From positions 1-64,000 of the forward strand of contig JACNGQ010000162.1 in NCBI GenBank assembly GCA_014384025.1: a stretch of DNA of 64,000 bases, read 5' to 3'. A program made the position numbers and the translations under genes. Below the pieces are notes generated by a model, which saw only the letters and a list, made by a program, of their open reading frames with translations, had not been told where the DNA came from and searched no databases. Numbering within the stretch: position 1 is the first letter of the stretch; every line of letters begins with the position of its first letter. Below are positions 10,683 to 21,202 of this stretch, piece after piece. The stretch comes from Planctomycetota bacterium. Its GTDB lineage: Bacteria > Planctomycetota > Phycisphaerae > Sedimentisphaerales > Anaerobacaceae.

Positions 10683-10787
10683 ACCCCGGATTTTTTTAAA
10701 TTATGCAACACTTCTGGTTTGCTACCGTCTTATTATATAGAATGACTAACTCACGGCGGTTGCTGAGATTGAGATGAAATTACGTTA

Positions 10788-10838
10788 TTTCTTATGAAAC
10801 AAATCTTTTTTTTGTGGGATGATCACATTAGAAACCAG
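10788..10838 (+). promoter_or_regulatory. Leader repeat copy 1 (candidate promoter of the sigma gene)
   Basis: A 51-bp stretch nearly identical to 12370-12419. It contains TGAAAC, a T-rich spacer of 17 bases, then GATGAT, an arrangement like a -35/-10 pair. It lies 117 bases before the sigma factor start. See copy 2 for the comparison. Confidence 0.5.
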
Positions 10839-10955
10839 TTTTAACGTATTCTCCTATAGGTCTCAATTTGTTTGATATTTATGCAGAATAATGATAGAAT
10901 TTAAAAAAGAATTGAAACATGTCAGCCTGGCTGGGATTATAGAGCTAGGCAGCCA

Positions 10956-12293
10956 ATGGCAAAAGAACTGAATATCCAAGTTATCCATCAGGCGCAGGCC
11001 GGGAATATGCAGGGTCTTTCTGCAGTGGGCGAACAGGTTCGGCAGAAAGTCGATACGTATATCTACCGTCTCACCCTGGACTACCATCTAACCCAGGATC
11101 TGACCCAAGAGACGGTCCTGGAGATGATTAAAGCCCTTCCTGGGCTTGAGGTGCACAATGTCAGTGGTTTCTGGGGCTGGATTTTCCGCACCGCCCTCGG
11201 CAAGGTACAGCACCACTTCCGGCTCCAAGGAGCCCGGCGTCTGGCCCAGAAAACGACTTCAGACGACTTCGTTCTGGAGTCGCACGCAATCGATGACAAC
11301 AATCCCATGAACGCTCTGGTTAGTGAAGAGATCCGGATAACTGTGCTGGGTGCCTTGCAGGCCATTAAGATCAAATACCGCAATATTCTGATCTTGCGCT
11401 GCTTCGAGAACCTGTCCTATGGTCAGATTGCCGGGATACTGGGTGGTAGTGAACTCAGGTCCCGATTGTTGTTCTTGCGGGCTAAACATTCCCTAAAGAA
11501 CCAACTGGAACGCCACGGTTTTAAACGTGACCACCTGCTTGCCGCCCTGACCATCTTTGCCGGTCTGACCGTGGGACCCGGGAAAAAGGTAGCAGCCGGA
11601 GAAGTCGTTTTGGCCAGCTCCCTGGAAACGGGATTGGGCATTGGCCTTGCGAGTCTAATCACCACTAAAACGGCGATAACCGCAGCCTGTGTATTGTGCA
11701 TAGGCGGTTTCACGGTTAGTATGATTAAACCAGGTTCTTCTACTCCTCCAACCAGTGAGGAGCTTTACGGCCACCTGTATCCCCTATTGAATCACATAGA
11801 GTTTGTGGCCCCATCCCAGGTGGTTGACGTGAATGATCCCGATAATGACGGTTTTCTGCTTGTCAATCTAAACACTCCCCAGTCACCGGCTCAACGCCTG
11901 AAACCAGATAACCTCGGAGACGTTTTACTCACTCAGCCACACATGGGACTCGTATTGCCCAAAGACCATTGGGTGGAACTAGGTTTTGACGGCCCCCTTC
12001 ATGACGGGCCCGGTCCGGATTTACTGATAACCACCCGGGCCTGTCGCTTTTATACCCGGGTGTTTGTTACCGATGGCTTGAGCAAGGTTTTCGAACTGCC
12101 TAGGCCCCAGTGCCTACGCATGGGTGTCTGCTGGCATAAACACATCATCGATTTCGACCTGGCCACACTGGATCTGCCCTTTGAGCCCCATGCGGTACGT
12201 TTGATGGGCAACTCCAACAGAGGTCGTGTCGGGGGCATTGAATTCTATTCAGTCCGAGCACGTATCAAGAGAGAGGGAGCACTGCAACCATAA
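10956..12293 (+). CDS. Sigma-70 family factor with C-terminal membrane and extracytoplasmic domain
   Basis: The N-terminal part is an ECF-like sigma factor. Region 2 spans about residues 30-95 (DLTQETVLEMIKALPG, FWGWIFRTALGK). Region 4 spans about 125-185, with the helix-turn-helix LSYGQIAGILG. Unlike a normal ECF factor of about 190 aa, it continues through hydrophobic segments (about 194-257, the clearest at 238-257) into a roughly 185-residue domain predicted outside the cytoplasm. That domain carries WVELGFDGPLHDGPGPDLL and a VRLMGNSNRGRVGG motif, resembling discoidin-like surface domains of planctomycetes. ECF factors with membrane-anchored C-terminal extensions are known in Planctomycetota. 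The start ATG has a weak ribosome site. The following five genes in the same direction are the obvious candidate targets. Regulation by the 10788 repeat is inferred. Confidence 0.8.
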   Translation: MAKELNIQVIHQAQAGNMQGLSAVGEQVRQKVDTYIYRLTLDYHLTQDLTQETVLEMIKALPGLEVHNVSGFWGWIFRTALGKVQHHFRLQGARRLAQKTTSDDFVLESHAIDDNNPMNALVSEEIRITVLGALQAIKIKYRNILILRCFENLSYGQIAGILGGSELRSRLLFLRAKHSLKNQLERHGFKRDHLLAALTIFAGLTVGPGKKVAAGEVVLASSLETGLGIGLASLITTKTAITAACVLCIGGFTVSMIKPGSSTPPTSEELYGHLYPLLNHIEFVAPSQVVDVNDPDNDGFLLVNLNTPQSPAQRLKPDNLGDVLLTQPHMGLVLPKDHWVELGFDGPLHDGPGPDLLITTRACRFYTRVFVTDGLSKVFELPRPQCLRMGVCWHKHIIDFDLATLDLPFEPHAVRLMGNSNRGRVGGIEFYSVRARIKREGALQP

Positions 12294-12369: not shown

Positions 12370-12419
12370 TTTCTTATGAAACAAATCTTTTTTTGCGGGA
12401 TAATCATATTAGAACCCAG
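12370..12419 (+). promoter_or_regulatory. Leader repeat copy 2 (candidate promoter of the propeller gene cluster)
   Basis: TTTCTTATGAAACAAATC and the following T-run are identical to copy 1 at 10788. The rest, to CCAG, differs at only a few positions. TGAAAC, 16 bases, then GATAAT gives a promoter-like arrangement about 80 bases before the next gene start. Confidence 0.5.
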
Positions 12420-12499: not shown

Positions 12500-14515
12500 A
12501 TGACTATGAAAAAAGAAGGGCTGCCGGCTTTGGTGTGTTTGTTTGTGTTCTTGTGCACGTGTGTTAAGGCCACTGAGGAGTTAGAAATGGCCTGGATGCA
12601 AAAGGTGTCCTTACAGGATGCAACTATTGCTGCTGTGGTTGGGGATTTTTCCGGGTGTACCTTCGTTACGGGCGATACGTCCGAAAATTTTGGCCCGGGA
12701 TATCCAAATCTCGGAAAAAGAGATGCCTACCTGATTAAATACAACCCGGACGGTGACCTGATGTGGGTATACCTATTTGGAACAGAGGATTTTGATTACA
12801 GTACCTGCCTAACAGTCGATGCTGAAGGCAACTGTTTCGTGGGCGGCCAAACCAATGGCTCATTCGCTCCGAACCTGATCGAAGATACCGGAGATACGCG
12901 ACAGGATGCCTTTGTGGCCAAGATCTCTTCTGAGGGCAGCTGTGTGTGGGTTCGACAGTTCGGAAATGCACGGTCTGACGGCGCCTGCGGGCTCCGGCTG
13001 GATCGGAACGGCAACTGCTATGTGGCCGGCAATACCACCTGCCGCATAGTCAGCGACGAGAGCAATGACCGCGGCGTCGCCACAGAGGAGTATATGAGTG
13101 AATGTCCCTTTGTGGCCAAGTTCGATTCACACGGCCAACTGGTCTGGTACAATCAGGTCAGTGAGTCTTATGCGAACACCGGACTGGGTGTGGGCGTGGA
13201 TCCCAACGGAACCGTTGCTCTGGTAGGCATGCCTGGATACGTCGCCACCTTTGACGCCAATGGGGTCCTCATTGAAACGTATCCCCTGGAGCATCGATTC
13301 GACAGTCTTATGAATGCCTGTGCCGATGACCTTGGGCACGTATATCTTGTCGGAAGGGAAAGCGGTTGGACGTCAACAGTCATTCAATACAACCTCAAGG
13401 GCCAGGAGGTTTGGTCGCATCGTTTTCAGGAAAACGGCTGGTCTAATACAAAGTCCATTGTTCTCTGCCTGGATGGATCACACGATATGGTTTGCGTTGG
13501 ATGTCAAGGGGGACCGTCCGGAGGAACGGGTTGTCAGACCTTTTTGCGGCGTTATTCGCAATCCGGGGACCTGGTGTCGATTTTCGGTTCCCCGGAGGGC
13601 TACTGTGGTGCGAGAGCCGGTGCTGATAGTCTTTATGGTGCCTATGCCATATCGGGTCTCCAGGGTACCGGTGACAACACGAATATTTTTAAAGTGCAAA
13701 TCCCGTTGACGATCGCCGCCTCGCAATACCTGGAAGCAGAAAGTGCTGATTTCCAGGGGGCTTCGATAGAGACCACTCAAGGCGACTATTCAGGACAGGG
13801 TTATATTCACCTGTCTGGTGATGACTGCTCGGTAGAGTGGGAAACCGATGTCACGAAAGCCGGGATCAGGACCGCATATATGCGATATATGAATCTCAAT
13901 CCGGAATCCGTTTTTGCTGTACCGATATTCAATAACAAAGGTGGAGGTAGAAATAAAATCACTATTGAACTGCCCCCCACCGGGGATCAGCATGCCTGGT
14001 CTATTGTCCGTTATGATCTGAATTTACGGTTAGGTGCTAATACATTCATGATTGTTCCGGAGGCTGACACAATCCAAGAAGGCCTCTATATGGACACCCT
14101 GGAGATTGTCAATCCAGGGGGTAATATCGCTTTGGATAAAATCCTTGTGTGCTCAGACGAAACCCAAGACAATCCCGCAGGTGCTTCATTAGATGGGAAA
14201 CTGGATACCGCATGGCAGGTTCAGACCTATCCCCAGTGGGTCGAAATCGACCTGGGCCATGTGTATCCAATTGATCAAACAGCCCTGTTCTTTGAAGGGG
14301 CCGGGTCATGTCAATTCATTATTGAAGCCAGGGCAAACCTCGACGATCCTTACCAACTCCTGGTTGACAACAGCACCAACATAACGCCCGCGAGCCTAAT
14401 GAAACCTTTGCAGGACACATTCCCAATCACTGATGTTCGCTATGTACGATTAACCGTAACAGGAGATGCCATGCACAGTGTGAGTATCCATGAGATATGT
14501 TTGAGTATCCGTTAG
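12500..14515 (+). CDS. Exported SBBP beta-propeller protein with CBM6/35-like and discoidin-like domains
   Basis: A 671-aa protein with a Sec leader (about residues 1-24). Residues 30-390 carry SBBP-type propeller blades with the recurring D-A-x-L/V-x-K-x-x-x-x-G pattern, such as KRDAYLIKYNPDGDLMWV, QDAFVAKISSEGSCVW and CPFVAKFDSHGQLVW. Residues about 400-535 (YLEAESADF... to YMDTLEIV) look like a CBM6/35-type carbohydrate-binding sandwich. The end (NIALDKI... LDGKLDTAW... WVEIDLG... RYVRLTV) looks like an F5/8 type C (discoidin/CBM32) domain. A role in binding surface or extracellular glycans is inferred. AGGAGA precedes the ATG by 8 bases. It is the first gene of a run of five closely spaced genes, 10 bases ahead of the next, and carries leader repeat copy 2. 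Confidence 0.8.
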   Translation: MTMKKEGLPALVCLFVFLCTCVKATEELEMAWMQKVSLQDATIAAVVGDFSGCTFVTGDTSENFGPGYPNLGKRDAYLIKYNPDGDLMWVYLFGTEDFDYSTCLTVDAEGNCFVGGQTNGSFAPNLIEDTGDTRQDAFVAKISSEGSCVWVRQFGNARSDGACGLRLDRNGNCYVAGNTTCRIVSDESNDRGVATEEYMSECPFVAKFDSHGQLVWYNQVSESYANTGLGVGVDPNGTVALVGMPGYVATFDANGVLIETYPLEHRFDSLMNACADDLGHVYLVGRESGWTSTVIQYNLKGQEVWSHRFQENGWSNTKSIVLCLDGSHDMVCVGCQGGPSGGTGCQTFLRRYSQSGDLVSIFGSPEGYCGARAGADSLYGAYAISGLQGTGDNTNIFKVQIPLTIAASQYLEAESADFQGASIETTQGDYSGQGYIHLSGDDCSVEWETDVTKAGIRTAYMRYMNLNPESVFAVPIFNNKGGGRNKITIELPPTGDQHAWSIVRYDLNLRLGANTFMIVPEADTIQEGLYMDTLEIVNPGGNIALDKILVCSDETQDNPAGASLDGKLDTAWQVQTYPQWVEIDLGHVYPIDQTALFFEGAGSCQFIIEARANLDDPYQLLVDNSTNITPASLMKPLQDTFPITDVRYVRLTVTGDAMHSVSIHEICLSIR

Positions 14516-14525
14516 GAGATTTTCT

Positions 14526-15443
14526 ATGAAGCAAAAGAAAAATGAGATGTATTGGGTTATGGCCTTTGTTTTGGCAGGATCCATCCATGCGTTTGCAAAA
14601 CCGTATGCCGTGGGACCTTATTTGGGACAGACCCCGCCCGGCTCTACGGCTCAGGTCTTTGCCCCGGGACTGATTTGTGATACACGGCCACACCAGTTGG
14701 AAGCCTGGGTGAGCTTCTCGGCTGATGGCAACACCTTTTGTTTTAACCGAGGTGGGTATGTTTTTATCACTGAAAACACAGATCAGGGCTGGACAAGGCC
14801 TAAGCGTATAAAGAGCATTCCATTCAAGACATCGTCATGCTGTCTATCTCCGGATGCCAATAGTATCTACTTCAATTACAGCTACGATCCGTCCAAACGC
14901 TACAGTCGTCATCGCTGCATGCGCACGTCCCGGGGGTGGTCTTTGCCACAGGAACTACAAGAACCATCGATCAACTCTGGATCTGGAGGTACATTCTCTT
15001 TAGCTGCGAATAACAATTTCTACTTTGTCTCCTGGCCCTTTGGGCCACACAAAAAGGGCGGTATATTTTGTGCCCCTTTTGTGGATAACACCTGGTCCCA
15101 GGCCATCAATCTCTCTGTGTTTGTCCAGGCGAAGGGGGTAGGGGAACCGGGCATTGCCCCGGATGAGTCCTTTATGATAGTCAACACCAAGGATCTACCG
15201 GGAGGGTATGGGCATCAAGACCTGTACCTAACCCTGCGACGGCCGGATGGTACCTGGCCCGAAGCTCGGAATCTGGGCCCTCGAATCAACTCTGCCTATC
15301 TTGAATACGGAGCCAGAATTTCACCCGACAAGAAGTACCTCTTCTTCACCCGCGCTAACGGGTGGGGTTATAATTCTAATGACGACACGGGTGACATCTA
15401 TTGGGTTGAACTCAAGGAATATTTGCCCGAAACCTATAGATAG
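14526..15443 (+). CDS. Exported PD40-like beta-propeller protein, tandem copy 1
   Basis: A 305-aa protein with a Sec leader (residues 1-24). The mature part starts with YAVGPYLGQTPPGSTAQVFAPG, a block shared by all four tandem copies. Blades follow with the PD40/WD40-like signatures SFSADGNTFCF, CLSPDANSIYF, GIAPDESFM and RISPDKKYLFF. At its end is DIYWVELKEYLPETYR, also shared. No catalytic motif is visible. TAGGAG lies just before the ATG. It sits 10 bases after the SBBP gene and 38 bases before copy 2. The four copies arose by tandem duplication, and the ligand is unknown. Confidence 0.85.
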   Translation: MKQKKNEMYWVMAFVLAGSIHAFAKPYAVGPYLGQTPPGSTAQVFAPGLICDTRPHQLEAWVSFSADGNTFCFNRGGYVFITENTDQGWTRPKRIKSIPFKTSSCCLSPDANSIYFNYSYDPSKRYSRHRCMRTSRGWSLPQELQEPSINSGSGGTFSLAANNNFYFVSWPFGPHKKGGIFCAPFVDNTWSQAINLSVFVQAKGVGEPGIAPDESFMIVNTKDLPGGYGHQDLYLTLRRPDGTWPEARNLGPRINSAYLEYGARISPDKKYLFFTRANGWGYNSNDDTGDIYWVELKEYLPETYR

Positions 15444-15481
15444 CTTGAAGGAATATCAAGCGAGTGAAAAGGAGATATGTT

Positions 15482-16402
15482 ATGAAACAGACAAAGAAAA
15501 AAAATATTTGGCTTGTGGCTTTTTTGGCAATAGGTTCTATCCCTGTGTTCGCCGCACCTTTTGCCAAGGGGCCCTATTTGGGACAAACTCCGCCCGGCCC
15601 TATCGCTCAGGTCTTTGCCCCGGGACTTATCTGTGATACACGGCCGTATCAATGGGAATCTTGGCCCAGCTTCTCTGCAGATGGTAACACCTTTTGTTTT
15701 AACCGGCTTAGGTATGCTTATATCACAGTAAACACAGACCAGGGCTGGACAACACCTGAGCGCATAGAAAGTATTCCATATCACGCCTGGTCGGGTGGTC
15801 TGTCTCCGGATGCCAATAGTATCTACATCCGGTGCGGCCCGTTCAGCAAGGCGAAGCGGAGGCGAAGGCGTGGGGTCAAAATGTGCATGCGTCGCTGTAC
15901 GCGCACGGACCAGGGATGGTCTTTGCCACTGGAATTAGGCCCACCCTTTGATGACGCGTCGGGTGATTTCACGGTGGCAGCGGATAACAGTATCTGCTTT
16001 CAATCCAGAAAAGACGGTTTTTCGATTGCCCCTTTTGTGGGCAACACCTGGTCTCAGGCCATAAAGCTCCCTATAGAGATGGGTAACTTAAGAGGCCACA
16101 GTCCGGGAATCGCCCCGGATAAATCCTTTCTGGTATTCTACTCCGTTAAACCAGGAGCACCGCTAGGAACGGAAACGAACTTGTACCTCACCCTGCGACG
16201 GCCGGATGGGTCCTGGACCAAACCTCAGAATATGGGGCCGCGCATTAATTCTCCGTATTTCGAATTCGGAGCCAGAATCTCACCGGACAAGAAATACATG
16301 TTTTTCACCCGCAGTACCGGATGGAATCTGCGTAAGGTATGTGACACTGGTGATATCTACTGGGTTGAACTCAAGGAGCACCTGCCCGAATCCTATAGAT
16401 AG
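15482..16402 (+). CDS. Exported PD40-like beta-propeller protein, tandem copy 2
   Basis: A 306-aa paralogue of the preceding protein with the same layout: Sec leader (KKKNIWLVAFLAIGSIPVFA), GPYLGQTPPG block, propeller blades SFSADGNTFCF, GLSPDANSIYI, GIAPDKSFLVF and RISPDKKYMFF, and the terminal DIYWVELKEHLPE. The frame is open from a GTG at 15464, but AAGGAG sits 8 bases before ATG 15482, which I use. A basic insert (AKRRRRRGVK) in the second blade is unique to this copy. The 38-base spacer before it is repeated, with two changes, before copy 3. Confidence 0.85.
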   Translation: MKQTKKKNIWLVAFLAIGSIPVFAAPFAKGPYLGQTPPGPIAQVFAPGLICDTRPYQWESWPSFSADGNTFCFNRLRYAYITVNTDQGWTTPERIESIPYHAWSGGLSPDANSIYIRCGPFSKAKRRRRRGVKMCMRRCTRTDQGWSLPLELGPPFDDASGDFTVAADNSICFQSRKDGFSIAPFVGNTWSQAIKLPIEMGNLRGHSPGIAPDKSFLVFYSVKPGAPLGTETNLYLTLRRPDGSWTKPQNMGPRINSPYFEFGARISPDKKYMFFTRSTGWNLRKVCDTGDIYWVELKEHLPESYR

Positions 16403-16440
16403 CCTGAAGGAATATCAAGCGAGTGAAAAGGAGATCTGTT

Positions 16441-17364
16441 ATGAAGCAGACAATGAAAACGATTGTTTGGCTTGTGGCTTTTTTAGGGATTGGTACTATC
16501 GATGTGTTTGCAGAACCATTTGCCGTGGGACCTTATTTGGGTCAGATCCCACCCGGCCCTATCGCTCAGGTTTTTGCCCCGGGACTTATCAGTGATACCC
16601 GGCCGCACCGGTGGGAAATCCATGGTCACTTCTCGTCTGATGGCAACACCTTTTGTTTTCGTCGGCTCGGGTATATTTATATCACAGAAAACACGGACCA
16701 GGGCTGGACAACGCCTGAGCGTATAAAAAGCATTCCATACAGGACCTGGTCGTGCTGTCTGTCTCCGGATGCCAATAGTATTTACTACATGGACCAACAT
16801 ATCACCAGATCGATACAGAACAGCTACGTTGCCTCCAAACCCTGGACTTATCATCGCTGCCTGCGCACGAGCCAGGGGTGGTCTTTGCCGGAGGAATTAG
16901 GCCCCTCCTTCAGTTCCGCTCGGGGTGGATTTTCTGTGTCAGCGGATAACAGTATCTATTTTAAATCCAAACGAGGTGGTTTTTGGGTTGCCCCTTTTGT
17001 AGGCAACACCTGGTCTGAAGCCAGAAAGATCCCTATGGAGATGGGCAACTTAAGAGGCTGTCATCCGGGCGTTGCCCCGGATGGGTCCTTTCTGGTATTC
17101 TACTCTATTCGACCGGGAGCAATGACCGGAACGGAAACGGACCTGTACCTGACCCTGCGACAGCCGGATGGTACCTGGACCAAACCCCGGAATATGGGTC
17201 CTGGAATTAATACCGGATATCATGAAATCGGAGCGAGGATCTCCGCGGACAAGAAATACATGTTCTTCACCCGCAGTACCGGGTGGAATCTGAATCGCGC
17301 TACCGATACGGCTGACATTTATTGGGTAGAACTCAAGGAATATCTACCCGAATCCCATAGATAG
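16441..17364 (+). CDS. Exported PD40-like beta-propeller protein, tandem copy 3
   Basis: A 307-aa paralogue, closest to copy 2 in both protein and DNA. It has the same leader, GPYLGQIPPG block, HFSSDGNTFCF, CLSPDANSIYY, GVAPDGSFLVF and RISADKKYMFF blades, and DIYWVELKEYLPE ending. The second blade carries an insert different from that in copy 2, so variation is concentrated in one loop region. The start is ATG 16441 with AAGGAG upstream; a GTG at 16423 is rejected. The similarity runs through the intergenic spacer as well, so duplication is recent compared with the rest of the region. Confidence 0.85.
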   Translation: MKQTMKTIVWLVAFLGIGTIDVFAEPFAVGPYLGQIPPGPIAQVFAPGLISDTRPHRWEIHGHFSSDGNTFCFRRLGYIYITENTDQGWTTPERIKSIPYRTWSCCLSPDANSIYYMDQHITRSIQNSYVASKPWTYHRCLRTSQGWSLPEELGPSFSSARGGFSVSADNSIYFKSKRGGFWVAPFVGNTWSEARKIPMEMGNLRGCHPGVAPDGSFLVFYSIRPGAMTGTETDLYLTLRQPDGTWTKPRNMGPGINTGYHEIGARISADKKYMFFTRSTGWNLNRATDTADIYWVELKEYLPESHR

Positions 17365-17397: not shown

Positions 17398-19122
17398 ATG
17401 AGAACACTATTTGTAAGCTTAATGATTGTTTTGGGAGTGGTCACCACAGGTTTAGGCGATACCCAAGTTAAGACACTGGTTCACGGGGGAAGAACGCGGT
17501 CCTACCGTGTGTATCTGCCGCCTTCGTATCGGGAAGGTTCTCCTATGGCATTGGTGTTTGCCTTGCACGGTTACGCGGACACGGGTGCCATATTTGAGAA
17601 AAAGTCAGGTTTCAGCCGTATTGCAGATCGTGAAGGATTCATTGTGGTTTACCCCAATGCTGTAGCCTTTGGTCCTAAGCAGAAGCAACTGTGGAACGGA
17701 GGCGGTATTTATGAAATCTGGTGGGCCGGACAGGTGGACGATGTCAGCTTCTTTGCGAAGCTGATTGATACCGTTTCTGCTGATTATACGATTGATCCGA
17801 ATAGAATCTTTGTGTATGGCACATCCAGTGGGGGATTTATGGCGCATCACCTGGGGGCCCGATTGCCGGGGCGGTTTGCAGCGATTGCTCCGTGGGCCGG
17901 CCTATTGGCCTATAACGATTTTGTGGCAGGTCCGCCTGTATCGGTGATTCACTTTCATGGGGCGCAGGATAAACGCGTTTTATACAATGGGCTACCAAAC
18001 TGGGGCTTCTTCGGTGTTGAATATGGGATACGTTTATGGGCAAAACGCAACCGATGTAAATCGACTCCCATTGTCATCAGGGATGATCCTAATGCCTTGG
18101 TGCGACTATGGGCAGCACCAAAGGGGACAGGTGATGTTGTCCTTTACAAGCTCAAGAACCAAGGCCATATACCTCCCCAGTCGAATTGCAACCTACCTGA
18201 GATTGCCTGGACATTCTTTCAGGATCATCCGAGAAGCAAAGTTAAGACACAATGGCCTGAATCGCAATCCCCTGCAGAACCGTTTGCCGTGGGACCTTAC
18301 CTGGGACAGATTCCACCCGGCTCTACGGCCCAGGTCTTTGCTCCCGGACTCATCTGCAAGATCGGGTACGGCCAGTGGGAATCCAATGGGACCTTCTCCG
18401 CCGACGGGAATGCCTTTTGTTATAAACAACGCCAGAAGGTTTATATCACAGAAAATACGGACCAGGGCTGGACAGTTCCCAAGCATATAAAAAGTATTCC
18501 AGTCAATAATTGGTCGCCCTACCTGTCTCCGGATGCAAACAGTATTTACTTTAGTCTCGCCTACCTTAATCAGTCCAACCAGTTCAACCGCTTCAATCTG
18601 TTTCGTTGTAACAGAACCGGCCGCGGATGGTCCCAGCCGCAAGAACTCGGGCCACCGCTCAGTTCTTCGGGCGCTGAATGGGGATTCTCTTTAGCAGCGG
18701 ATAACAGTTTCTACTTCTCTTCCAAGCGCAAGGGGGGACGTGGAGGAGACGATATATGGCACGCTCCTTTTGTTGATAATACCTGGTCACAGGCTATCCA
18801 TCTTTCTGCCTTAAACACCAGCTACAACGACGCCGGTCCGGGCATTGCCCCGGATAAATCTTTTATGGTGTTTAACTCCGTTCGACCGGGAGGGCTGGGC
18901 GGTGCGGACCTTTACTTAAGCCTGCGACAACCAGATGGAACCTGGACCACACCGAGAAATTTAGGCCCCAGAGTCAATTCTGCGTATCATGACTTCGGAT
19001 GTTATATCTCACCAGACAAGAAGTACCTATTTTTCTCCCGCCGTACAGGCGGGAATTCGAGCCGTGATGCCGCGGATATCTACTGGGTTGAACTCAAGGA
19101 ATATTTGCCCGAATCTCAATAG
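17398..19122 (+). CDS. PHB-depolymerase-type esterase fused to the PD40-like propeller (copy 4)
   Basis: A 574-aa exported protein (Sec leader about residues 1-20). Residues 22-275 form an alpha/beta-hydrolase of the PHB depolymerase / LpqC / feruloyl-esterase type: FALHGYADTG near the oxyanion site, nucleophile Ser143 in GTSSGG, Asp191 in GAQDKRV and His257 in NQGHIPP. From about residue 294 (AEPFAVGPYLGQIPPGS) the protein continues with the same propeller module as the three genes upstream, ending DIYWVELKEYLPES. The ATG has TCAGGAG 8 bases upstream. The esterase probably removes acyl or aromatic esters from a polymer, with the propeller as binding module; the substrate is not known. It closes the cluster. 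Confidence 0.88.
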   Translation: MRTLFVSLMIVLGVVTTGLGDTQVKTLVHGGRTRSYRVYLPPSYREGSPMALVFALHGYADTGAIFEKKSGFSRIADREGFIVVYPNAVAFGPKQKQLWNGGGIYEIWWAGQVDDVSFFAKLIDTVSADYTIDPNRIFVYGTSSGGFMAHHLGARLPGRFAAIAPWAGLLAYNDFVAGPPVSVIHFHGAQDKRVLYNGLPNWGFFGVEYGIRLWAKRNRCKSTPIVIRDDPNALVRLWAAPKGTGDVVLYKLKNQGHIPPQSNCNLPEIAWTFFQDHPRSKVKTQWPESQSPAEPFAVGPYLGQIPPGSTAQVFAPGLICKIGYGQWESNGTFSADGNAFCYKQRQKVYITENTDQGWTVPKHIKSIPVNNWSPYLSPDANSIYFSLAYLNQSNQFNRFNLFRCNRTGRGWSQPQELGPPLSSSGAEWGFSLAADNSFYFSSKRKGGRGGDDIWHAPFVDNTWSQAIHLSALNTSYNDAGPGIAPDKSFMVFNSVRPGGLGGADLYLSLRQPDGTWTTPRNLGPRVNSAYHDFGCYISPDKKYLFFSRRTGGNSSRDAADIYWVELKEYLPESQ

Positions 19123-19309
19123 TTCCAGTCAGGTCGTGGATTAGCGAGTGTTCATTCGAGTGGAAGATTCCGCTACGTGCCCGGTGCAGGGAAATCCCAG
19201 TAAATATATGACATTTTGGCATGAATTTGGTAGAATGATATATCAAGAGGTTTTGAAATACTACTGAATGACTTATTTGGGAAATTTCGGAAAGGAAAGA
19301 GAGAATTCG

Positions 19310-21202
19310 ATGAGACAATATCATGGAAAATATGTGATGCTGGTGTGTGTGCTGCTGACAGTGGAAGCTTTCATGGACGGGCGGAGTTTTGCGGAGACAA
19401 GTGATTTTCTATCTCCGATTTCTATCGTTGCCGGAGTCGATGGTAAAGTGCTTTATATTGCCGAGGCCACTGCCAATCAGATTGCGGTTTTTGATATAGC
19501 CACCAGTAAGGTTGTCAAAGTAATATCTGTCGGTGAAAATCCTGCAGGTCTTGATATTTCCGCCGACGGGAGCAAGCTTTATGTTACTTCTGCAGTGCCC
19601 GCCGGTAAGGTGCAGATAATTGATGTTCGAGACGGGAGTGTGACTGGCAGTATCACTGTGGGTCATACGCCGGTTGCGGTAGTTGAAAGCACGGACGGCA
19701 AAACGCTTTATATCTGCAATCAGTTCAATAACAACGTCGGTGTTGTTGACCTTATTTCAAAAAAGCAAGTTGCCGTCATTGCCGTAGTGCGTGAACCTGT
19801 TGCCGCAGCTCTTACTTCGGATGGCAAAATACTGCTGGTTGTCAATCATCTTCCTGCGGGGCCTGCTAATGTCGATTATTGTGCTTCAGTTATATCGGTC
19901 ATCGATACGGCTGCTAAGAAGTTAATTAAGAATATCGAACTTCCGGATGGCAGCACGAATGTTCGAGGGATAACAATTTCGCCGGACGGCATGAACGCCT
20001 ACGTGACGCAGGTGCTTGCACGTTATCAGTTTCCGGTGACATACCTCGAAAAGGGCTGGATAAACACAAACGCAATGACCATTATAGATGTTCCCGGCCT
20101 GAAATTTGTAAATACGGTTTTGATTGATGACGTTGACCTCGGCGGTGCCAATCCCTATGGCGTTGCCTGTACATCCGACGGCAAGAACATTCTGATAATT
20201 CATGGCGGCTCTTATGAGCTAAGTGTTATAGACCGCAAGGGACTACATAGACGTTTGTTGCCGGCAGAGTCGGCCAGGAGGTTTAGCTCAGAAATTCATT
20301 CAGGAGGAGGTAGAAAACTCTTCGATAGTTCGTATTCTGCCGGAGATGTGCCGAACGATCTTACATTTATGGCCGGCATTCGCCGCAGGATTAAACTTGA
20401 GGGTATCGGGCCCCGCGGTTTGGCAGTTATCGGGACAAAGGCTTATGTAGCAGAGTATTTCACAGACAGCATCGGCGTGGTGGATATAGGAGCGTCTGCT
20501 CAGCCAGCAGTTAAATCGATACCTCTTGGAAAAACCAAATCAGCAACATTTATCCGCAAGGGTGAGGTACTCTTTAACGATGCTTCTCTTTCCTATCAGA
20601 TGTGGAACAGCTGCACGAGCTGCCATACGGGAGATGGACGTGCAAGTGCATTGAATTGGGACCTGTTAAACGATGGAGTAGCCAATCCAAAGAATATCCG
20701 AAGTATGCTTCTGTCACATAAGACTCCGCCTGCAATGATTACCGGCGTTCGTGAGAATGCCGAAGTTGCAGTTCGGAGCGGCATTCGCTATATTCAGTTT
20801 GCGAGTACAACAGAGAGGAAGGCACAGGCTATCGATGCTTATCTGAAGTCTCTTAAGCCGATTTCCAGTCCGTATCTTGTCAACGGTGAGTTGAGCGAAG
20901 CAGCTCAGAAAGGTAAAAAGCTCTTTAGTAAAGCCGGTTGTTTGCTATGTCATTCACAGCCGCTTTATACCAATATGAGCAAATATGATATAGGCACAAG
21001 TACGGAACAAGACGACAATCAAGAGTATGACACACCTACGCTCATAGAAGTATGGCGAACGGCCCCATATCTGCATGATGGAAGAGCTGTGACAATCAAA
21101 GACGTTTTGACAAAGTTCAACAAAGATGACCGGCACGGGCGCACTTCGGAGCTGACCGATAAGGAAATCGAAGAGTTAGCTGCATTTGTGCTGTCTCTGT
21201 AA
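19310..21202 (+). CDS. YVTN beta-propeller protein with C-terminal di-haem (MauG/peroxidase-like) region
   Basis: A 630-aa exported protein (leader about residues 1-28). Residues about 35-400 carry YVTN/YncE-type propeller repeats (VGENPAGLDISADGSKLYV, VGHTPVAVVESTDGKTLYI). The C-terminal 200 residues contain two c-type haem sites, CTSCH from residue 435 and CLLCH from residue 544. With the nearby motifs TPTLIEVWRTAPYLHDG, they resemble the second half of di-haem cytochrome c peroxidase/MauG proteins. A redox function in the periplasm is inferred. The frame is open to ATG 19268, but ATG 19310 is preceded by a GGAAAGGAAAGAGAG tract and starts the signal peptide. It is monocistronic and converges with the next gene. 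Confidence 0.82.
   Translation: MRQYHGKYVMLVCVLLTVEAFMDGRSFAETSDFLSPISIVAGVDGKVLYIAEATANQIAVFDIATSKVVKVISVGENPAGLDISADGSKLYVTSAVPAGKVQIIDVRDGSVTGSITVGHTPVAVVESTDGKTLYICNQFNNNVGVVDLISKKQVAVIAVVREPVAAALTSDGKILLVVNHLPAGPANVDYCASVISVIDTAAKKLIKNIELPDGSTNVRGITISPDGMNAYVTQVLARYQFPVTYLEKGWINTNAMTIIDVPGLKFVNTVLIDDVDLGGANPYGVACTSDGKNILIIHGGSYELSVIDRKGLHRRLLPAESARRFSSEIHSGGGRKLFDSSYSAGDVPNDLTFMAGIRRRIKLEGIGPRGLAVIGTKAYVAEYFTDSIGVVDIGASAQPAVKSIPLGKTKSATFIRKGEVLFNDASLSYQMWNSCTSCHTGDGRASALNWDLLNDGVANPKNIRSMLLSHKTPPAMITGVRENAEVAVRSGIRYIQFASTTERKAQAIDAYLKSLKPISSPYLVNGELSEAAQKGKKLFSKAGCLLCHSQPLYTNMSKYDIGTSTEQDDNQEYDTPTLIEVWRTAPYLHDGRAVTIKDVLTKFNKDDRHGRTSELTDKEIEELAAFVLSL

Follow-up and report, generated by a model that had tools for sequence, protein, structure and literature searches.

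The 64,000-nt stretch analysed here, called the window below, is positions 1 to 64,000 of contig JACNGQ010000162.1 in the Planctomycetota assembly GCA_014384025.1. Its gene at 10956–12293 most probably (roughly 0.72) encodes a membrane-anchored, autoregulating extracytoplasmic function (ECF) sigma factor, the regulon of which would be the adjacent operon of secreted beta-propeller proteins. The sequences support this through the architecture of the protein, a pair of promoter-like sites, the conservation of these sites, their co-variation with the sigma protein, and the linkage to propeller genes; a ligand, proteolytic release and the direction of control are proposed in addition. The sigma2 and sigma4 parts would lie in the cytoplasm, helix 239–257 would pass through the membrane, and a domain of the galactose-binding/discoidin fold would be outside. 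The ligand would be at the surface or outside the cell, probably a glycan or one of the secreted repeat proteins made by the cell itself; its action on the outer domain would make the sigma part available to RNA polymerase, most likely via regulated proteolysis near the membrane. Transcription would then proceed from promoters of the form TGAAAC-N14/15-GGGATNAT, including that of the sigma gene itself (positive feedback), that of the adjacent operon encoding SBBP/CBM35/F5-8C and PD40 proteins, and those of propeller clusters elsewhere in the genome.

The initial annotation of the window had placed sigma regions 2 and 4, membrane segments and a discoidin-like domain of about 185 residues in one frame. 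Both sigma regions were recovered by Pfam (Sigma70_r2, and Sigma70_r4_2 at residues 131–166 with E 2.6e-5), and the NCBIfam sigma70-ECF model spanned residues 32–184 with a score above its cut-off. The AlphaFold2 model of region 2 had a predicted local distance difference test (pLDDT) value of about 90 and matched the structures of SigW, E. coli sigmaE and SigC, while modelled region 4 matched that of SigL (Z 11.2), its helix-turn-helix being located at about residues 154–178 and including G164. Sigma2 and sigma4 were the only promoter- and core-binding parts present, as is characteristic of ECF (group IV) factors. The search for homologues covered 89 genomes of the same family. The closest full-length relatives were 78, 65 and 63% identical (genomes G039, G046 and G006, respectively) and others 29–41%; since all of these have the same layout, the open reading frame is not a chance product. 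Many other proteins were similar only over the first 250 residues and had other C-termini. The named records of relatives were metagenome-assembled genomes of Sedimentisphaerales, Phycisphaerales and Phycisphaerae, in agreement with the earlier statement that anchored ECF factors occur in Planctomycetota, and no phage relatives were found.

Residues 239–257 formed the strongest hydrophobic 19-mer C-terminal to the sigma part, and the equivalent segment scored 1.95–2.9 on the Kyte-Doolittle scale in every full-length homologue scored. Two weaker hydrophobic segments, 194–212 and 217–235, were present upstream of it, also in many homologues; the plural 'membrane segments' of the annotation was correct, and one span is the safest count. 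Neither a Cys/His zinc motif of the anti-sigma type nor a Pfam match was found in residues 167–238, and no anti-sigma-like gene adjoined the sigma gene. The annotation's proposals that the protein senses a surface ligand directly and needs no separate anti-sigma factor may be right. Past the first hydrophobic segment, around residues 205–216, an AxA-like pattern of small residues (TASA, SASA, KAAA) was kept family-wide; it was considered as a signal-peptidase cleavage site and was indistinguishable from a small-residue turn.

Release of the sigma part by proteolysis is suggested by the precedents of IutY and ECF52 (PMC8999054) together with a site-2 protease homologue encoded in the genome, a frame of 712 residues with split M50 matches. 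A less probable alternative, the best placed of those considered, is that the sigma factor is active while tethered, the ligand altering the juxtamembrane segment so that the sigma part is freed without proteolysis and polymerase is recruited to the promoters at the membrane. Mean pairwise identity was 35% in the juxtamembrane segment 191–238, as against 19–21% in the transmembrane helix and 26% in the ectodomain, which suggests more than a passive linker, and short relatives of about 280 residues consisting of the sigma part and hydrophobic segments only would also fit activity in the tethered state. Against it stands IutY, the one characterised membrane-fused ECF factor, which is released by Prc/RseP proteolysis (PMC8999054).

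Modelled alone, residues 269–445 gave a single beta-sandwich (pLDDT 90, predicted template modelling score 0.87), of which about 160 residues (281–440) were globular. The closest structures were IFT25 (Z 8.9), its human relative PP25/HSPC034 (Z 8.3), a CBM32 domain (Z 8.1) and the N-terminal domain of XRCC1 (Z 8.1), with 123–132 aligned residues, and Foldseek matched the model to CBM29, CBM32, CBM6 and the discoidin domain of muskelin. As these Z scores are only moderate (about 8–9), a galactose-binding-like fold can be assigned to the ectodomain, but not a function. The discoidin-like domain of the annotation was thus upheld as a fold, at a somewhat smaller size, but not as a sequence family: Discoidin/F5-8 type C (PF00754) had no sequence match in the ectodomain, the C-terminal 255 residues (191–445) matched no Pfam or NCBIfam family, and searches of PADLOC and of PDB sequences with the C-terminal part gave no match and nothing credible, respectively. 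Designed SAKe proteins were rejected as relatives, the profile matches hanging on a block of 22 residues and no stretch passing alone.

The ectodomain is very probably extracytoplasmic, as the annotation had it, mainly because signal peptides stand in front of the same domain in secreted proteins, which is indirect evidence. The domain family was present in 24 of 397 genomes of the class, both in sigma fusions of about 440 residues and in proteins of about 540–900 residues. In the genome of the window it stands directly behind the signal peptide of a secreted protein of 747 residues with LamG and weak dockerin matches (L062, G000:C72:4545-6788), and other secreted LamG-type proteins in related genomes likewise carry a signal peptide followed by this domain. 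It is improbable that the protein has two spans and keeps its C-terminal domain inside as a cytoplasmic regulatory part, like the SnoaL-type extensions of ECF41. The weaker segment 194–212 could provide the first span, but the ectodomain of a secreted protein is 59% identical to that of one sigma fusion, three cysteines are conserved among the closest orthologues, and carbohydrate-binding folds of the galactose-binding kind are usually extracellular.

Near-identical sequences sharing the TGAAAC-N14/15-GGGATNAT core were found upstream of the sigma gene and of the next gene. The motif occurred at six sites in the genome and its reversed-pattern control at none. Three sites were in the window (10795, 10913 and 12377), and each of the three others preceded a gene of the PD40 propeller family to which the genes downstream of the sigma gene belong, one of these gene copies being decayed. 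The orthologues in G039, G046 and G006 (L044, L163/L045 and L164/L046) retained both sites, the first 43 nt upstream of the sigma start codon and the second shortly past the stop codon. A propeller gene came next after the second site in G039 and G006; in G046 the contig ended just past that site, and the same leader opened another contig, with three propeller genes behind it. Within propeller clusters, the site was present at most of the leading genes and absent from later tandem copies, as expected for operons.

Among more distant homologues (about 30–40% identity), six had a divergent neighbour gene whose leader bore a site on its own strand. The neighbour leaders of ten loci were searched with a generic -35 only, on the neighbour's strand and blind to the sigma gene's own motif, and gave 11 matches against 1.7 expected, with at least one at each locus. 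When own and neighbour sites were compared in seven loci (the six divergent pairs and the window), the true pairing gave the greatest similarity of all 5040 permutations (P = 1/5040, 2e-4). The divergent partners encoded secreted-type proteins: a PD40 propeller with beta-helix (two), a beta-helix, a leucine-rich repeat, a PQQ propeller, and a GLUG/F5-8C/CBM35/beta-helix protein; the divergent neighbour of L172 carries CBM35 and F5/8C, as does, with a weak CBM35 match, the first gene of the predicted operon in the window. The proposal of a self-contained unit of sigma factor and propeller genes is supported both by these pairs and by the three closest orthologues, and neither a lack of a transmembrane helix nor orthologues with unrelated neighbours, the outcomes named beforehand as contrary to it, was encountered. 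The description of the partners as surface propellers proved too narrow, as the class also includes beta-helix, leucine-rich-repeat and F5/8C-CBM35 proteins.

The promoter boxes also varied together with the protein. Contact residues of sigma2 and sigma4 determine the promoter boxes of ECF factors (PMC8103513). At the position equivalent to G164, which precedes [S/T/K]-E/Q-L in the region-4 helix, G was combined with an xGAAAC -35 in 12 of 12 cases and R, in one further protein, with GGAAAC, while C, N or Q was found wherever the -35 was xGTAAC, in all cases read (part of the C cases by eye from printed region-4 helices). The region-2 loop similarly grouped with the -10 variant across homologues. 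The sequences are related and the counts are therefore not independent events; within them, Q, N and C seem to represent distinct switches.

It is unlikely that the shared motif belongs to some other sigma factor or regulator with joint control over the sigma gene and the propellers. About 73 region-2 matches are encoded across the genome (6.7 Mb in 448 contigs), and any conserved site could ride on duplicated leaders. However, the site keeps a fixed position 42–46 nt upstream of the sigma ATG, its AAC -35 and spacing are of the ECF type (PMC8103513), and both boxes co-vary with residues of the same sigma factor. The group is rich in propeller genes and in ECF factors alike, but an ordinary ECF paralogue in a random neighbourhood of unrelated propellers is very improbable, as adjacency and promoters are conserved in the orthologues and, fragments aside, the four genomes with the propeller family (>50% identity) are those with the close sigma orthologue.

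Some observations weigh against an anchored, autoregulating factor with the propeller operon as its regulon. In the AlphaFold2 model of the full protein, sigma2, sigma4 and the ectodomain were good and residues 207–267 poor; given the low confidence of the juxtamembrane segments, two spans with the domain inside keep a low probability. Duplication explains part of the similarity of the propeller leaders, and the count of six sites overstates their independence. Six full-length homologues (L053/L170, L054, L058, L055, L061/L174 and L063) lacked a TGWAAC site before the gene, and inspection by eye of the L170/L054/L058 group for a common promoter gave no clear result. Three genomes that lack a close sigma orthologue (G084, G031 and G083) contained pieces or remains of propeller-family genes.

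Within the window, a propeller-gene leader of about 155 bp, one promoter copy included, was duplicated upstream of the sigma gene (10686–10840; 145 of 159 columns identical to L070). The motif copy in it could serve as a second promoter or be a relic. The site at 10913 had no flanks in common with the other sites. The features of the locus are collected in Table 1.

Table 1. Sigma factor gene, candidate promoters and predicted target operon in the window.
Feature	Position	Strand	Basis or detail
Putative anchored one-piece ECF sigma factor, 445 residues, ATG start	10956..12293	+	Open reading frame call, domain matches, homologues
Sigma region 2, residues 27-92	11034..11231	+	Pfam PF04542 (Sigma70_r2), E 5.8e-7
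Sigma region 4, residues 117-190	11304..11525	+	Pfam PF08281 match; SigL structure match
Juxtamembrane segment, residues 191-238, conserved, hydrophobic/small residues	11526..11669	+	Conservation; low-confidence model
Predicted transmembrane helix, residues 239-257	11670..11726	+	Kyte-Doolittle mean 1.95
Ectodomain, residues 281-440, galactose-binding/discoidin/CBM-fold beta-sandwich	11796..12275	+	AlphaFold2 model, structure matches
Predicted autoregulatory promoter	10913..10941	+	-35 TGAAAC 10913-10918, -10 GGGATTAT 10933-10940; 43 nt before ATG
Predicted promoter of downstream operon	12377..12405	+	-35 TGAAAC, -10 GGGATAAT; between sigma gene and operon
Third motif copy, in duplicated propeller-gene leader upstream of sigma gene	10795..10824	+	Motif match
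Secreted protein, SBBP propeller repeats, F5/8 type C (discoidin) and weak CBM35; first gene of predicted operon	12500..14515	+	Pfam
PD40 beta-propeller protein, predicted target operon	14526..15443	+	Open reading frame, Pfam, family comparison
PD40 beta-propeller protein, predicted target operon	15464..16402	+	Open reading frame, Pfam, family comparison
PD40 beta-propeller protein, predicted target operon	16423..17364	+	Open reading frame, Pfam, family comparison
PHB-depolymerase-type esterase fused to same PD40 propeller	17398..19122	+	Open reading frame, Pfam, family comparison

The esterase-propeller gene is the probable end of the target operon. The gene at 19268–21202, 146 nt past it, encodes a fusion of a propeller and cytochrome c domains; its partial similarity to the model of hydrazine synthase beta-gamma reached 167 bits, far short of the cut-off. 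Propeller-gene promoters were also met with outside intact genes. At L071:3800-4231, such a promoter and the start of a signal peptide lead into sequence similar to part of sigma region 4, and a Ser/Thr kinase bearing PD40-like repeats is encoded alongside, which suggests a decayed or re-used target. At G083:C8:69916 (L096), the promoter and signal-peptide start are present and the rest of the gene is absent; a close sigma orthologue is lacking in that genome.

Among the wider relatives, a protein of 580 residues (L031:1486-3225) combines the same module of sigma part and membrane segment with a beta-lactamase/penicillin-binding fold (PF00144, E 5.5e-23), which by eye lacks the usual SxxK motif; the protein is possibly a one-piece sensor of the cell wall or of beta-lactams. 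In the short relatives L025–L042 (about 280 residues), the sigma module is accompanied by an additional strong hydrophobic segment at the C-terminus instead of an ectodomain, and most have TGTAAC-N14/15-GGACTATA-type sites upstream of the start codon. Three relatives of about 620 residues (L012, L041 and L043) have about 350 C-terminal residues without a Pfam match, and that part of L012 had no credible PDB match. Tentatively, Sedimentisphaerales and their relatives may share one conserved sigma-plus-membrane module that has been combined with interchangeable outer domains (of the discoidin fold, of a degenerate beta-lactamase fold, or of unknown fold and about 350 residues) or with none. The result would be a class of one-protein transmembrane transcription initiators without an anti-sigma factor, each of which would recognise its own promoter pair and drive an adjacent secreted protein.

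Anchored sigma fusions have been noted before, and according to reviews the characterisation of ECF factors with C-terminal extensions has only begun. The present case offers a testable promoter, target operon and sensor domain together, as well as naturally occurring variants of sigma factor and promoter whose boxes go with single positions in regions 4 and 2. How a membrane-tethered sigma factor reaches DNA would become directly testable.

One of the nearest known likenesses is ECF52 (SCO4117 of Streptomyces coelicolor), also a one-piece sigma factor with a transmembrane helix and an extracytoplasmic part that includes a carbohydrate-binding domain (PMC8999054; PMC5826349). ECF52 has a zinc finger and a proline-rich region, whereas the window protein lacks the zinc anti-sigma motif, has an ectodomain of a different family and, unlike ECF52, has a predicted linked regulon of secreted proteins. 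Of the features of ECF52/ECF53, the transmembrane helix and extracytoplasmic C-terminal part were predicted and the zinc-finger (ZAS) domain was not. IutY (ECF243, Pseudomonas putida) similarly unites a sigma factor with its membrane part and becomes active through proteolysis by Prc/RseP (PMC8999054); its FecR-like anti-sigma domain had no Pfam match in residues 191–445. The window protein would work like ECF52 or IutY yet is filed under neither, because the defining zinc finger and FecR-like domain were sought and not found; it resembles fusions of these types without a recognisable anti-sigma domain. With ECF57 it shares a large C-terminal extension and a beta-propeller theme, and WD40-bearing ECF factors have been reported from planctomycetes (PMC8567305). 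In ECF57 the propeller is part of the sigma factor, whereas here the propellers are separate secreted proteins and the extension consists of a membrane helix and then a domain of the galactose-binding fold, with no Pfam match to WD40-like repeats and a single beta-sandwich in the model. The RsgI proteins of the Clostridium thermocellum SigI system (PMC12203970) likewise combine extracellular substrate sensing, a transmembrane helix and intramembrane proteolysis in the control of surface enzyme genes; there RsgI is a separate anti-sigma factor, whereas the window protein would be sensor and sigma factor in one. The wider family with exchangeable outer domains, the beta-lactamase fold included, would be the more novel prospect.
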